NCBI GenBank assembly: GCA_017399405.1
Contig: JAFQCT010000012.1
Span: 124,001 to 188,000 of the forward strand
DNA length: 64,000 nt
Direction of reading: 5' to 3'
DNA from: Clostridia bacterium
GTDB taxonomy: Bacteria > Bacillota > Clostridia > Oscillospirales > Acutalibacteraceae
The position numbers and the translations under genes are program-made. Every line of letters starts with the position of its first letter. Position 1 is the first letter of the stretch. Positions 12,287 through 17,807 of the stretch are shown here, one piece after another. Below the pieces are notes generated by a model. That model saw only the letters and a list, made by a program, of their open reading frames with translations, was not told the DNA's origin and ran no database searches.

Positions 12287-13705
12287 TTATGATAATTTAT
12301 TTGTTAAAAGTTCTTTGATTACTGCCAGATCGCCTGCACCACGAAGTTCTTTCATACAAGCACCGAAGAGGGCCATAAGAGCTTTTTCTTTGCCACTCTT
12401 ATAATCGGCAACTGCTTTTTCGTTTTCAGCGATAACTTTATCGATTACGCTATCAATTGCAGATGAGTCAAATTTCTTATCGAGCCCCTGTGCCTTAACA
12501 TATTCTTTAGGGTCAACATTATCTTCAACAACTGCGATAAGAACTTTCTTACCTGCGTTTCTGTTGATTTCACCGCTATCAACCATCTTAATAATTGTAG
12601 CAAGAGTTTCTGCAGTCATTGTAAGGTCGTTAAGAGTTTTACCGTCTTTACGAAGAACGCCTGCACAGTCAGTAAGAATCCAAGTTGCAGTATCTTTTGG
12701 ATTGCATCCCATAGCAACAATATCGTCAAGCATTTTTGCAATCTTATGATTTGAGATAAGCATATCGATTTCTTTTTCAGAAATTCCTGCCTCGCGGTAC
12801 TGTTCAGCCTTTTCATCAACTGCAACAGGTTTGTTAGCCTTGATTTCTTCAAGCCAAGCGTCGTCAATGATAATAGGCATAAGGTTTGCATCAGGGAAAT
12901 AACGGTAATCTGCTTCAGTTTCCTTATTTCTCATTGCAAATGTTTTACCGCTTACATCATCAAATCTTCTTGTTTCCTGAACAAGTTCTTCAATTTCATA
13001 TTCAAGAGCATCTATATGACGCTGTGATTCATACTTGATTGCTCTTTCAATAGCCTCGAATGATGCCATATTCTTAATTTCAGTACGAACACCAAATTCC
13101 GTGCTACCCTCAGGGCGAACAGAAATGTTAACATCGCAACGCATAGCACCCTCTTCGCACTCTGAAATGCCACTTGAACGGAACATAGATTTAAGTTTGT
13201 TAAGGTATGTTACAACTTCTTCAGCACTGCGGAAATCAGGCTGTGTAACAATCTCGATAAGCGGAACACTTGTACGGTTAAAGTCAACGAATGATGAGTT
13301 ACCGCTGTGAACAAGTTTACCTGCGTCTTCTTCCATATGAATTTGCTTAATGCGAATATCTCTTGTGCCCTCACTTGTTTTAAGAGTTACGCAACCATCA
13401 GTACAAATTGGGTGGTTAATCTGTGTAATCTGGTATGCACAAGGAAGGTCAGGATAATAGTAGTTTTTCTTATCAAATGTTGTGTAACGGTTAATGTTAC
13501 AGTTAAGCATAAGACCTGCTGTAACTGCAAGTTCAACAACTCGCTTATTCATAACAGGCAACATACCTGGCATACCTGAACAAGCAGGACAAACGCAATC
13601 GTTTGGCTCACTGCCCTGACCGTGTCCACCACATGAACAGAATATTTTTGATTCAGTACTTAACTCAACATGAGTTTCAAGGCCCATAACAAGTTCGTAT
13701 TTCAT
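12287..13705 (-). CDS. gatB: Asp/Glu-tRNA(Asn/Gln) amidotransferase subunit B
   Basis: Subunit of GatCAB that binds the mischarged tRNA, activates its Asp or Glu side chain with ATP and adds ammonia. 472 residues, full family length. N-terminal kinase/cradle domain starting MKYELVMGLETHVEL with a zinc-type cysteine cluster (CSC at about 22-24 and CVCPAC near 38-43) and the conserved IHMEEDAGK and DFNRTSVPLIEIVT blocks; C-terminal helical and YqeY-like tail domains. The ATG at 13705 follows AGGAGGG, two bases after the gatA stop. It looks intact, in contrast to its GatA partner. Confidence 0.95.
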   Translation of the reverse strand: MKYELVMGLETHVELSTESKIFCSCGGHGQGSEPNDCVCPACSGMPGMLPVMNKRVVELAVTAGLMLNCNINRYTTFDKKNYYYPDLPCAYQITQINHPICTDGCVTLKTSEGTRDIRIKQIHMEEDAGKLVHSGNSSFVDFNRTSVPLIEIVTQPDFRSAEEVVTYLNKLKSMFRSSGISECEEGAMRCDVNISVRPEGSTEFGVRTEIKNMASFEAIERAIKYESQRHIDALEYEIEELVQETRRFDDVSGKTFAMRNKETEADYRYFPDANLMPIIIDDAWLEEIKANKPVAVDEKAEQYREAGISEKEIDMLISNHKIAKMLDDIVAMGCNPKDTATWILTDCAGVLRKDGKTLNDLTMTAETLATIIKMVDSGEINRNAGKKVLIAVVEDNVDPKEYVKAQGLDKKFDSSAIDSVIDKVIAENEKAVADYKSGKEKALMALFGACMKELRGAGDLAVIKELLTNKLS

Positions 13706-13706
13706 A

Positions 13707-14888
13707 TTATTTGCCCTCCTTTTCAACGCTGTGAGCAAGACTTAAAAGTGTACTTTCGCTGAAATGATTACCCATAAGCTGAACACCATTTGTAACGAGA
13801 GCAGGAATACCAATAAGGTTTGGCACTGCTGTAAATACACTTTCTGCAAACACTTTGCCGAACGCATCTTTAATATCGTACGCTTCATATTCCGCTTTGC
13901 TGCAAGCAGGATTAAGAATTGCATCAAATTCTTCGAATGCTTTTGCGATGCCCTCTGCCACTACACGACGAATACGAAGTGACTTATCAAAGCAGTCTTT
14001 ATAACGGTGTTTTGAAAGAACATCAGAACCGTAAAGGATAACTGCCTTTGTAAGGAAGTTAAAGCCCTCTGTTCTTGTGTTTACATATAATTCATCAATG
14101 TTTTTGTATTCTTTTGCACGATGGCCGAACTTAACACCATCATAACGGGAAACATTGTTACAAGTTTCAGCACACATAAGAATCTGCCAAGCTGTGTTTG
14201 CGATTTCAACCATATCGCAAGAAATCTCAACAACTTCAACACCGTTTGCACGAAGCGAATCAGCAAATGCAAGAACTTTTGCTTTTGTTGAGTCGTCTGC
14301 TTTATCAAGCAAGTATTTGTTGATAGCAACTTTCTTGCCTTTTACATCAGTAAATGAGTAGTCATAAGTGTCATTTTTAAGACTTGTGCCGTCTTTGTCG
14401 TCATGACCTGCAATAACGCCCATAATTTCAGCAACTTTCTGTGCATCTTTTGCGTAAACACCAATCTGTTCACCTGATGCAGCACAAGAAATTACACCGT
14501 AACGGGAAACTGTGCCGTAAGTTGGTTTTAAGAAATCAACACCTGCGAGTGCTGCTGCTCTTCTTGTTGCACCATTCATATCAACGCCAAGTGCTGCTTC
14601 TACATCACCATTTTTAACGAGAGTTGCTGCTGCACCGCTGAGTTTTTCACCTTGTGGTGCATAGTATGAAAATTCACCAACAAGGTCAAGACCAAATTCA
14701 CCAACATTAGTCTTCCCTGCTACTGTATAGCCTTTATCTTCAAGACGAGTAACTACTTCAGCACTGAAAAGCGGCTTGAAACCGTCAAGGATTTTTGAGC
14801 CAGCAGTTGTAACAACATCTTTAACAAGGATTGTATCATCAACTGCAATATTGCCTTTATCACTAATTTGTGTTGCATAATATTTCAT
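13707..14888 (-). CDS. gatA: GatA-like subunit lacking the amidase nucleophile
   Basis: GatA normally hydrolyses glutamine and sends ammonia to GatB. Here the protein is 393 residues, against roughly 485 in the usual family. The amidase-signature lysine is kept (Lys23 in LVKD), as are GKTNVGEF and FLKPTYGTVSRYGV. The glycine/serine-rich motif that holds the cis-serine reads EKLSGAAATL (81-90), with Leu at the cis-serine position by alignment. The nucleophile motif, normally GSDTGGSIR, reads GVDMNGATR (101-109), with Ala107 where the catalytic Ser belongs. The reading frame is open, the start has GAGGTGA upstream, and it sits between aspS-gatC and gatB, so it looks like a maintained gene. I infer loss of glutaminase activity. 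Confidence 0.88.
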   Translation of the reverse strand: MKYYATQISDKGNIAVDDTILVKDVVTTAGSKILDGFKPLFSAEVVTRLEDKGYTVAGKTNVGEFGLDLVGEFSYYAPQGEKLSGAAATLVKNGDVEAALGVDMNGATRRAAALAGVDFLKPTYGTVSRYGVISCAASGEQIGVYAKDAQKVAEIMGVIAGHDDKDGTSLKNDTYDYSFTDVKGKKVAINKYLLDKADDSTKAKVLAFADSLRANGVEVVEISCDMVEIANTAWQILMCAETCNNVSRYDGVKFGHRAKEYKNIDELYVNTRTEGFNFLTKAVILYGSDVLSKHRYKDCFDKSLRIRRVVAEGIAKAFEEFDAILNPACSKAEYEAYDIKDAFGKVFAESVFTAVPNLIGIPALVTNGVQLMGNHFSESTLLSLAHSVEKEGK

Positions 14889-14899
14889 TACTATTCACC

Positions 14900-16978
14900 T
14901 CACTTTACAAGTCTTGGTACTTGCCAACTGTCTTCGTTTCTTTCAGGAGCACCCTCGAGAAGACTTTCTCTTGAGAAGTTCTGTATACGAACATCTTCAC
15001 GAAGTACATTTGTCATTGGCATAACATGTACCATTTCTTCAACATTTTCTGTATCGATTGTTTTAAGTTTTTCTTCGCTATCTTTCATTGCAGTAAAAAT
15101 GCCTTGCATTACTGCTTCTTCATCTTCTGTGAGAGAAAGTTGGTTAAGTTGTTGTGCATTTGAGAAAGTTGAGCGTTTACCCTGCGACTGTTTTGCAGTA
15201 CCGCCAACTGATGCTTGACGCTGTGCCAACGCACTGCCATTACCAAGAAGATGAACATCTTCAAGCTGTTGATTTGTAACCTCACTTGGAGCACCAAGTA
15301 ACAAGTCTTGAGCGTTACCATTAAGTGGGAATGCAATAACATCAAGGATTTTTTCTTCGTCAGTTAAAAGCATTACCATACGGTCAATACCCGGTGCCAT
15401 ACCTGCGTGAGGTGGTGCACCATACTGGAATGCTGTATATAAAGCATTGAAACGATTTTTAAGTTCTTCTTCGTCATAACCTGCAATTTCAAATGCCTTT
15501 TTCATAATATCAATGTCGTGGTTACGAACAGCACCAGATGCGAGCTCGATACCATTACAAACAAGGTCATACTGATAAGCCAAAACTTCAATAGGGTCTT
15601 TTGTAAGGAGAGATTCCATACCACCCTGTGGCATTGAGAATGGGTTGTGAGTAAAGATTGTTTCGCCTGTTTCTTCGTCATTTTCATACATTGGAAAATC
15701 AACAACAAAACAGAATTCAAATGCATCGTCACTAATAAGGTCAAGTTGGTCTTTACCTGCAAGCCAAGTACGAATCATACCTGCCTTTTTCTCTGTGCTG
15801 TTTTTCTTTTCGTCACAGATAAAGAACAGAGTTTCGCCCTCTTTAACGCCTGTGAGTTCTGTGATTTCAACTTTCTGTGCATCACTCAAGAATTTTGCAA
15901 TAGGACCTGCAAAAACACCGTCTTTAAGTGTGATATAACCAAGACCACCAAGGCCAACTTCATTTGAAGTTGCGAATTTAAGTGAGTCTTCAAAGAACTT
16001 CTTTGATTTACCCTGACAGTTTGCTACGATACCACGAACAGGCTTACCCTTGAAAGCAGGGAAGCTGACACCTGCGAAAAAGTCTGTTAAATCGCAGATA
16101 ACAAGTGGATTACGAAGGTCAGGTTTGTCTGAACCATAAGTCATCATAGCATCAGCATAAGTGATTCTACGGAATGGTTTAGGTGTAACCTTTTTATCTG
16201 TGAATGATTTGAATGTATCGTAAATCAAATCTTCACAAACATCAAGAACTTCTTCCTGAGTTGCAAATGCCATTTCGAAGTCAAGCTGATAGAATTCACC
16301 AGGTGAACGGTCAGCACGAGCATCTTCATCACGGAAGCAAGGTGCAACTTGGAAATAACGGTCAAAACCTGAAACCATAAGAAGCTGTTTGAACTGCTGT
16401 GGAGCCTGTGGAAGAGCATAGAACTTGCCCGGATGCTTTCTTGACGGAACAAGGAAATCACGAGCACCTTCAGGAGATGATGCAGTAAGAATTGGTGTTT
16501 GCATATCAAGGAAACCTTTTTCTTCCATCTTGTTACGAAGATGACGGATAATCATTGAACGCTTAACAAGATTGTCGTGGTTCTTTGGATTACGAAGGTC
16601 AAGGTAACGATATTTAAGACGAACTTCGTCTTTGCTCTGTCTTGATGCTCTAACATCAAATGGGAGCATATTTTTGCTTTTACCTAAAATTTGTAAACTG
16701 TCAGCTACAAGTTCTACATAACCTGTCGCAATCTTTTCGTTTACTGTGTCAGGGTCACGCTTTTCAACAACACCGCTAACTGAAATTACAGTTTCACGGT
16801 TTACATTTTTAACCAAATTTTCATCATGAATAACAACCTGTGTAACACCCGTATAGTCACGAATGTCAACGAAGATAACGCCACCGTGGTCACGAACAAC
16901 ATCAACCCAACCTGCAAGTTGAACGGTTTGACCAATGTGTTTATCGCAGATGTCGTTACAGTATAGTGTTCTGTACAT
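14900..16978 (-). CDS. aspS: Aspartyl-tRNA synthetase fused to GatC
   Basis: 692 residues. Residues 1-580 are a bacterial class II AspRS: anticodon-binding OB fold (GWVDVVRDHGGVIFVDIRD), motif 2 FRDEDARADRSPGEF, the bacterial insertion domain, motif 3 GIDRMVMLL and the usual end LLLGAPSEVTNQQLEDVHL. After a 24-residue linker, residues 605-692 match GatC: helix with LSLTEDEEAV, IDTENVEEMVHV, NVLREDVRI and the terminal APERNEDSWQVPRLV. The frame is continuous. The ATG at 16978 follows GGAGG; longer starts are rejected. There is no separate gatC in the window. His31 (VRDHGG) is the residue linked to relaxed tRNA(Asn) recognition in non-discriminating AspRS. Controlled by the T-box upstream. Confidence 0.93.
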   Translation of the reverse strand: MYRTLYCNDICDKHIGQTVQLAGWVDVVRDHGGVIFVDIRDYTGVTQVVIHDENLVKNVNRETVISVSGVVEKRDPDTVNEKIATGYVELVADSLQILGKSKNMLPFDVRASRQSKDEVRLKYRYLDLRNPKNHDNLVKRSMIIRHLRNKMEEKGFLDMQTPILTASSPEGARDFLVPSRKHPGKFYALPQAPQQFKQLLMVSGFDRYFQVAPCFRDEDARADRSPGEFYQLDFEMAFATQEEVLDVCEDLIYDTFKSFTDKKVTPKPFRRITYADAMMTYGSDKPDLRNPLVICDLTDFFAGVSFPAFKGKPVRGIVANCQGKSKKFFEDSLKFATSNEVGLGGLGYITLKDGVFAGPIAKFLSDAQKVEITELTGVKEGETLFFICDEKKNSTEKKAGMIRTWLAGKDQLDLISDDAFEFCFVVDFPMYENDEETGETIFTHNPFSMPQGGMESLLTKDPIEVLAYQYDLVCNGIELASGAVRNHDIDIMKKAFEIAGYDEEELKNRFNALYTAFQYGAPPHAGMAPGIDRMVMLLTDEEKILDVIAFPLNGNAQDLLLGAPSEVTNQQLEDVHLLGNGSALAQRQASVGGTAKQSQGKRSTFSNAQQLNQLSLTEDEEAVMQGIFTAMKDSEEKLKTIDTENVEEMVHVMPMTNVLREDVRIQNFSRESLLEGAPERNEDSWQVPRLVK

Positions 16979-17005
16979 TTTGTCTACCTCCAATTTATCC
17001 CGAGT

Positions 17006-17044: not shown

Positions 17045-17225
17045 ACGAGTAAATCTAAAAAATACCCGCGGTGCCACCCGCATTGATTTGCAAAAGCAAA
17101 TCCTCTTTTAATATTAAATTAGTATTGCCTTCGAAGTGTTCCCAAACTTACTACTCATCTCAAACGCGCTTTCAGTCGGTGACGCGTTCTCCCTGTCAGA
17201 CTTTCCACAAAAGCCGAGTCTTCGA
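17006..17225 (-). promoter_or_regulatory. T-box riboswitch controlling aspS-gatC/gatA/gatB
   Basis: The transcript carries the T-box core GCGGGTGGCACCGCGGGT (17064-17081). The variable base in UGGC is C, matching a tRNA with G at position 73, as expected for tRNA(Asp) and tRNA(Asn). The antiterminator pairs with CGTCCC at 17042-17047, in competition with the terminator. A GAAG/CTTC closing helix, an AGGGAG...CTGAAAGC hairpin and GATGAGTAGTAA lie upstream as stem I/II elements. From the promoter to the T-box core is only about 150 bases, short for this class. I could not assign the specifier codon with confidence. Confidence 0.85.
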
Positions 17226-17283: not shown

Positions 17284-17730
17284 TTAAACTTTTACCTTGA
17301 CTACTACTTTTTTACAAGTAATTGATTTACCATTTGTGGCTACACCGGGACAATGCAAATCATTAGGATACAACACCATAAAACTGTTTTCAATAAGTGT
17401 TATCGGTTCTGTTTTGCACTCATAAAACCACACATCATTTTCAGGGATAGCCTGTGTTTCAGTTTTTGGGGTTTCAAAAGGTGCAACACCAATAAGTTCC
17501 TCACCTTTTACCATAAACTGAATGTCAATGTACTTTTTATGGGCTTCCGATATAGTTTTTTCCGGGTCAGTATTGTAACTTTGCACCATATAGTATATGT
17601 TGTCACCGTCAAGTTCATACCTACCCAAATCCATTTTATTGAAATCGGTTTCTGCTAAAAATTCAAGTGCAGTATATACTCTGCCTAATCCTTTGTAGTT
17701 TTCAATGTTTTTTAATGTATCAAAAATCAT
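17284..17730 (-). CDS. YhcH/YjgK/YiaL family protein
   Basis: 148 residues from the ATG at 17730, which follows CAGGTGAT. Matches the YhcH/YjgK/YiaL family (beta-galactosidase subunit beta/EbgC-like cupin fold): SEAHKKYIDIQFMVKGEELIG, and the C-terminal FMVLYPNDLHCPGVA carry the conserved Glu/His metal-type residues. Members are linked to sialic acid and other sugar acid metabolism in some bacteria, but the neighbours here give no pathway, so the substrate is unknown. It stands alone between the aspS promoter and the structured region 17800-18600. Confidence 0.85.
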   Translation of the reverse strand: MIFDTLKNIENYKGLGRVYTALEFLAETDFNKMDLGRYELDGDNIYYMVQSYNTDPEKTISEAHKKYIDIQFMVKGEELIGVAPFETPKTETQAIPENDVWFYECKTEPITLIENSFMVLYPNDLHCPGVATNGKSITCKKVVVKVKV

Positions 17731-17807
17731 AAATATCACCTGAAAACAATATATCAAAGACTATTCCAAAAGTCAATTGAAAATTTTTTAATTTTTTTAA
17801 TAAAAAA

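Follow-up and report, generated by a model that had tools for sequence, protein, structure and literature searches.

The window analysed here, a stretch of 64,000 nucleotides from a Clostridia bacterium (contig JAFQCT010000012.1), carries on its reverse strand an operon in which an aspartyl-tRNA synthetase (AspRS) and GatC, a subunit of the tRNA-dependent amidotransferase GatCAB, form one open reading frame, followed by gatA and gatB and preceded by a T-box leader (Table 1). The Pfam domains of the fused protein are all above their cut-offs: tRNA_anti-codon (residues 19–98), tRNA-synt_2 (117–553), GAD (314–393) and GatC (616–687, 47.6 bits, cut-off 23). TIGR00135, the gatC family model, matches residues 604–691 with 54 bits (cut-off 47.1). 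A preliminary description of the window had read the frame as AspRS (1–580) joined to GatC (605–692); both parts hold, with the end of AspRS nearer residue 577 and GatC starting at 604. The fusion is real. A sequencing error at the junction is ruled out by the recurrence of such frames in 18 genomes of the bacterial family (own genome included), and a GatC search of the genome (1.96-Mb assembly, 97.5% complete) returned the fused match alone, in line with the earlier view that no separate gatC exists. An AlphaFold2 model of the fused protein was not used (pLDDT, the predicted local distance difference test, 67; pTM, the predicted template modelling score, 0.53; linker and most of GatC below 50).

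Table 1. Features of the AspRS–GatC operon, in window coordinates
Feature	Positions	Strand	Basis and remarks
T-box leader RF00230	17038..17267	-	45.6 bits, E 6.7e-9
Probable specifier codon AAC (Asn)	17138..17140	-	position by eye
Ribosome-binding site GGAGG of aspS2-gatC	16987..16991	-	by eye
aspS2-gatC fusion gene	14900..16978	-	single 692-aa frame from ATG; open reading frame listing, profile matches
AspRS part, residues 1–577, bacterial type with GAD domain	15248..16978	-	profile matches
Linker, residues 578–603 (~26), variable	15170..15247	-	alignment with relatives
GatC part, residues 604–692 and stop	14900..15169	-	Pfam and TIGR00135
gatA (393 aa; catalytically dead, judging by its sequence)	13707..14888	-	alignment to live GatA
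gatB	12287..13705	-	ATG at 13705 (listed open reading frame from TTG at 13738); active-site motifs kept

A transamidosome is otherwise non-covalent; here, with AspRS and GatC covalently joined and no separate gatC found, the synthetase is likely hard-wired to the amidotransferase in a transamidosome, as was proposed earlier, and its stoichiometry would be fixed. By itself the fusion is a modest find. The remainder of the system had been taken for an ordinary GatCAB and is not one: the catalytic residues of GatA are missing, and the genome has the fused AspRS in addition to another AspRS.

Aligned to live GatA, the GatA of the window has lost the amidase triad Lys/cis-Ser/Ser. The catalytic lysine is replaced by D17, the Gly-Ser-Ser-Gly-Gly loop with the cis-serine is deleted, as is the glutamine-binding loop, and the nucleophile motif TGGS reads MNGA, with A107 in place of the serine (catalytic and substrate residues as named in PMC4027206). 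The same losses show in an alignment with the solved GatA of Aquifex. The protein has 61 residues fewer before the catalytic lysine position than the live GatA of locus L068; since gatA starts 11 bases behind the stop of the fusion gene, no missing N-terminus is hidden there. The AlphaFold2 model of this GatA is confident, and GatA proteins top its matches among solved structures.

The loss is common to the 57 dead-type GatA sequences compared (window included). The catalytic lysine column holds Asp in 56 and Glu in 1, all 57 have a gap at the glutamine-binding Asp, and the nucleophile column reads A in 37, S in 13, T in 4, Y in 2 and F in 1. The Lys and Ser residues are kept in 57 of 57 live GatA, with Asp in the glutamine-binding column of 49. 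Six loci were dropped before these counts: L094, L119 and L126 are identical to other loci, L052 and L095 have a cut or split GatA, and the GatA of L246 is the same as that of L097. In the GatA tree, rooted at its midpoint, a branch with support 100 sets the dead GatA (57 rows) apart from the others. Among the columns invariant in live GatA, 40 of 99 are kept (at ≥90%) in the dead loci and 38 are lost. The ratio of nonsynonymous to synonymous substitution rates (dN/dS) of dead gatA is 0.058–0.130 in 12 of 12 close pairs, and lower in the same pairs for aspS (0.017–0.084) and gatB (0.015–0.081); the pairs were picked at 83–99.5% GatA identity, and some share a locus. Dead GatA thus resembles a scaffold that is being preserved and not a decaying remnant. 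Selection on GatA, which has invariant residues of its own, would also fit a rebuilt active site that still hydrolyses glutamine; we consider this very unlikely, as none of the 57 sequences retains the lysine or the glutamine-binding Asp loop, the cis-serine block is disrupted and the nucleophile varies among A, S, T, Y and F. On the scaffold reading, which we keep, the system offers a simple test of the role of GatA besides glutaminase.

Reduced GatA proteins also occur outside this group. L234 (5925–7052) and L235 (6009–7139), from a distant group (family f11), encode a dead GatA of 375–376 aa in which the lysine and the cis-serine loop are lost and which adjoins the dead clade on a long branch; aspS and gatC are unfused in both, and an AAC T-box precedes L234. 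A partly dead GatA of 441–445 aa is found in L064 (5257–6582) and L067 (5228–6565), in genomes that also have a live GatA. Lysine and cis-serine are gone, the nucleophile serine and the N-terminus are kept, and the sequences sit on a long branch that is not part of the dead clade; this looks like a separate decay.

GatB, on the other hand, looks intact as a kinase/transamidase, judged by its conserved motifs. The window protein scores 571.8 bits with the family model (cut-off 338), and the active-site residues named in PMC4027206 were located, by motif and eye, at E21, H23, E136/E137, E162, N204 and S206. In the dead loci, 81 of the 100 columns invariant in live GatB are kept (at ≥90%).

The T-box leader is below the Rfam gathering score (45.6 against 93 bits), and a scan of the whole window at that score gave no match. 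Of the 53 dead loci whose upstream DNA could be read, 52 have the antiterminator motif and the AAC codon, L092 being the exception; in a second sample, 9 of 10 loci have them, all but L247. The genome encodes another, unfused AspRS, whose gene follows hisS and which has Leu at the position of His31 in the fusion; His is found at this position in 53 of 53 AspRS of dead loci. We take His31 to be a mark of non-discriminating AspRS. Together with the GAD domain, it suggests that the AspRS part is a bacterial-type non-discriminating AspRS, predicted to charge tRNA(Asn) and probably dedicated to it. The tRNA-Asn has U1-A72.

LysRS, GluRS and GlnRS are also encoded in the genome. A search of it (97.5% complete) found neither asparaginyl-tRNA synthetase (AsnRS) nor live GatA; its single other amidase match seems to be a secreted protein. 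The 55 genomes with dead GatA that were searched have AsnRS in 11, live GatA in 16 and neither in 31; these last include five that are at least 96% complete (G000, G198, G075, G190 and G126). The searches took in 40 of the at least 47 dead loci described below, leaving out L094, L119 and L126 (copies) and L095, L108, L112 and L114 (short contigs), and the AsnRS counts for dead-type genomes refer to these 55, with those of the class survey outside them. GlnRS is above cut-off in 53 of 58 genomes (the 55 and three others); GatCAB is therefore mostly not needed there for Gln-tRNA. AsnRS was found in 8 of 8 tested genomes of the family without GatC (81 in the sample), including G098, of the same genus. 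A weak AsnRS-like protein in G203 proved to be an archaeal-type AspRS, and this genome stays counted without AsnRS. G210, which has a live GatA, holds a 255-bit AsnRS-like match. A further kind of AspRS, archaeal-type (NF003483 over cut-off), lies just upstream of the fused operon in L086 (1255–2589).

A scan of genome contigs gave at least 47 dead-type loci at 45–78% identity, with live GatA at 38% or less among the matches listed; the record titles of 33 of the at least 47 name a herbivore gut site. In a survey of 391 genomes of the class, the dead type is present in 13 (own included), all scoring at least 459 bits, and the best of the remaining matches scores 308; the 13 carry eight family labels.

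We infer the following course, ammonia source included, from what can be read in the sequences: the fusion, the gene order, the T-box codon, the loss of the GatA active site, the selection on GatA, the conservation of GatB, and searches that turned up neither AsnRS nor live GatA. Uncharged tRNA(Asn) would be read by the AAC T-box and turn the operon on. The fused AspRS2 part would charge tRNA(Asn) with aspartate, and as the GatC tail would keep GatA and GatB on the same protein, the mischarged tRNA would be handed over, not released. GatB would activate the aspartate with ATP and then amidate it, with GatA acting as scaffold or regulator. Without glutamine hydrolysis by GatA, the ammonia would have to come from elsewhere, most likely as free ammonia, possibly topped up by an asparaginase-family partner. 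Free ammonia would be the simplest donor and is plentiful in the gut; we see its chances of being the main donor as evenly balanced. According to PMC4027206, yeast GatFAB with a trimmed GatF arm lost glutaminase and gained NH4Cl-driven transamidation. That this is a dedicated Asn system with a GatA unable to use glutamine by the amidase mechanism we hold with good confidence; the whole explanation, a dedicated Asn-tRNA(Asn) system with GatB running on ammonia that GatA does not supply, is mildly favoured.

Several observations weigh against it. Serine still stands at the nucleophile position in 13 of the 57 dead GatA, 10 of the 100 live-invariant GatB columns are lost in the dead loci, and live GatA is also present in 16 of the 55 genomes. 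The genomes are mostly metagenome-assembled, so that missing AsnRS or live GatA may partly be gaps, and the 40 reached through loci carry no completeness figure. The genome of the window also encodes a glutamine-hydrolysing asparagine synthetase (L192, 1477–3306; TIGR01536 over cut-off), which is odd if free asparagine is not chargeable, no AsnRS having been found. Incomplete assemblies, and AsnRS in 11 of the 55 genomes, would likewise suit an operon that is a decaying or moonlighting relic, Asn-tRNA coming from an enzyme unrecognised here. Such a relic is highly improbable in view of dN/dS values of 0.06–0.13 for gatA, with still smaller ones for aspS and gatB (12 pairs), the retention of the T-box by 52 of 53 dead loci, and 31 of 55 genomes without another recognisable route, five of them at least 96% complete. 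A dedicated system remains our preferred reading, and those 31 genomes, with the dead-GatA operon as sole recognisable route to Asn-tRNA, make it a clean one.

As to the nitrogen, an asparaginase-family protein may be the amide donor, releasing ammonia (and aspartate) from asparagine or glutamine for GatB; we regard it as a candidate, though a rather unlikely one. The products of asparaginase are both substrates of the Asn-tRNA pathway. A gene of one divergent asparaginase subfamily is found in the flanks (up to ~5 kb) of 16 among the 57 dead loci, against 1 among 56 live ones (Fisher p 9e-5), the live control loci being unmatched in kinship to the dead ones and the lone live match scoring just 47 bits. 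In the dead loci it takes several places and orientations, often 0–70 bp behind gatB, and it is near the operon in 7 of 11 new dead loci from the class survey. Counted over genomes with a 150-bit line, drawn after the gap was seen, it is present in 39 of 44 dead-type genomes without AsnRS against 2 of 11 with it (Fisher p 1.4e-5), and in 29 of the 31 that lack both AsnRS and live GatA. When the 14 genomes whose sequences went into the model are set aside, the figures are 25 of 30 against 2 of 11 (p 2.3e-4) and 15 of 17. These counts ignore kinship; by eye, the dead-type genomes that have AsnRS are scattered over about seven positions in the GatA tree.

The protein itself gives mixed signals. 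GatD (1zq1_A) is its third best solved structure (E 3e-27), and T12, T93 and D94 are kept among the aligned members, presumably the catalytic Thr and Thr-Asp of asparaginase. At what we assume to be the catalytic lysine position, 15 aligned members have no conserved Lys, Gln171 being invariant there, and activity is doubtful for this reason. All 5 members scanned fall well short of the asparaginase and GatD cut-offs. The copy in the genome of the window is solitary, lies on a different contig, belongs to the weaker class (202 bits) and lacks a T-box; none was found before stand-alone genes of this kind in 13 loci scanned. The gene also occurs in 5 of 15 genomes with live GatA only and 1 of 8 with AsnRS only, and may do no more than salvage free asparagine that is unchargeable without AsnRS. 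If it were the donor, the system would resemble archaeal GatDE, in which a GatB-like kinase is fed by an asparaginase-family subunit; it would differ in that the asparaginase-like protein is without the conserved catalytic lysine and the N-terminal part of GatD, and in that GatA and GatC are still present. Free ammonia stays the favoured main donor.

The T-box aspS2-gatCAB genes of Clostridium acetobutylicum, reportedly the subject of Saad et al. 2012, are likewise said to pair an extra AspRS with GatCAB under T-box control; the citing text mentions neither fusion nor dead GatA, and no AsnRS was found in the genome of the window. In GatCAB with non-discriminating AspRS (the Asn-transamidosome), AspRS, GatC, GatA and GatB are adjacent too, and the GatB active-site motifs are kept here; the differences are the joining of GatC to AspRS and the missing glutaminase residues of GatA. 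The GatCAB enzymes in the literature cited take nitrogen from glutamine, as far as the available parts of these papers go (PMC4206432, PMC4027206, PMC8406222, PMC6523644, PMC4237437). The T-box-controlled, fused, glutaminase-less machine for Asn-tRNA is a variant of the known GatCAB kind, with a nitrogen source that can be tested. If our reading is true, a selected and widespread glutaminase-less GatCAB ties protein synthesis directly to the supply of ammonia or asparagine. More tentatively, several families of gut Clostridia may have taken Asn-tRNA formation off glutamine by disabling the glutaminase of GatCAB, with ammonia or an asparaginase-family protein as nitrogen source and AspRS, GatC, GatA and GatB in one particle.

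Turning to the origin of the fusion, the Pfam GatC model matched in 119 of 200 genomes of the family, and 19 of the matches fall within AspRS–GatC frames of 693–774 aa, spread over 18 genomes (own included). Thirteen of the 19 fusions (window included) accompany a short dead GatA, with truncation at a contig end in one case; six accompany a full-length live GatA and have an AspRS of a different clade, and G177 carries both kinds (L048 and L049). The live-GatA fusions L043–L048 have the same domain order as the window fusion, and 5 of 6 have a T-box-like motif. They differ in their AspRS clade (support 100, quick tree), in Met at position 31 in 5 of 6 as against His, and in a full-length GatA with intact triad. 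Among relatives of the window fusion, the linker is of two dissimilar types. By the quick AspRS tree, AspRS was joined to GatC at least twice. A single fusion origin is not claimed: the dead-GatA fusions need two changes on this tree, the starred branches force only one, and the two groups have different linkers. In L127 (2912–4987), from a genome with AsnRS (G237), the frame is split into pieces of 408 and 266 aa.

The literature searched, with subscription papers mostly outside it, held no report of an AspRS–GatC fusion or of a glutaminase-less GatA. The earlier statement that no such protein is described stands to that extent; NCBIfam NF009460 (PRK12820) does bear the name bifunctional aspartyl-tRNA synthetase/aspartyl/glutamyl-tRNA amidotransferase subunit C. 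Like the window protein in domain order, it covers another protein group, and the window protein scores 464.9 bits, far below its cut-off of 1379. Four relatives reach 448.6–632.8. As the unfused AspRS of the same genome scores 603.2, the score reflects AspRS alone and is silent on a shared fusion.

Some neighbouring genes may be recorded. Upstream of the T-box, the window has a gene of the YhcH/YjgK/YiaL family (17284–17757; TIGR00022 over cut-off). L106 (670–9009) holds a tandem of aspS, gatC, dead gatA, gatB, gatC, live gatA, gatB and, at the very end of the stretch, the start of an asparaginase-like gene. Eleven dead loci, L049 (7897–9051) among them, have a downstream gene related to alanyl-tRNA editing proteins (AlaXM 146 bits, below cut-off); it shares the strand of the operon and follows either gatB or the asparaginase-like gene.
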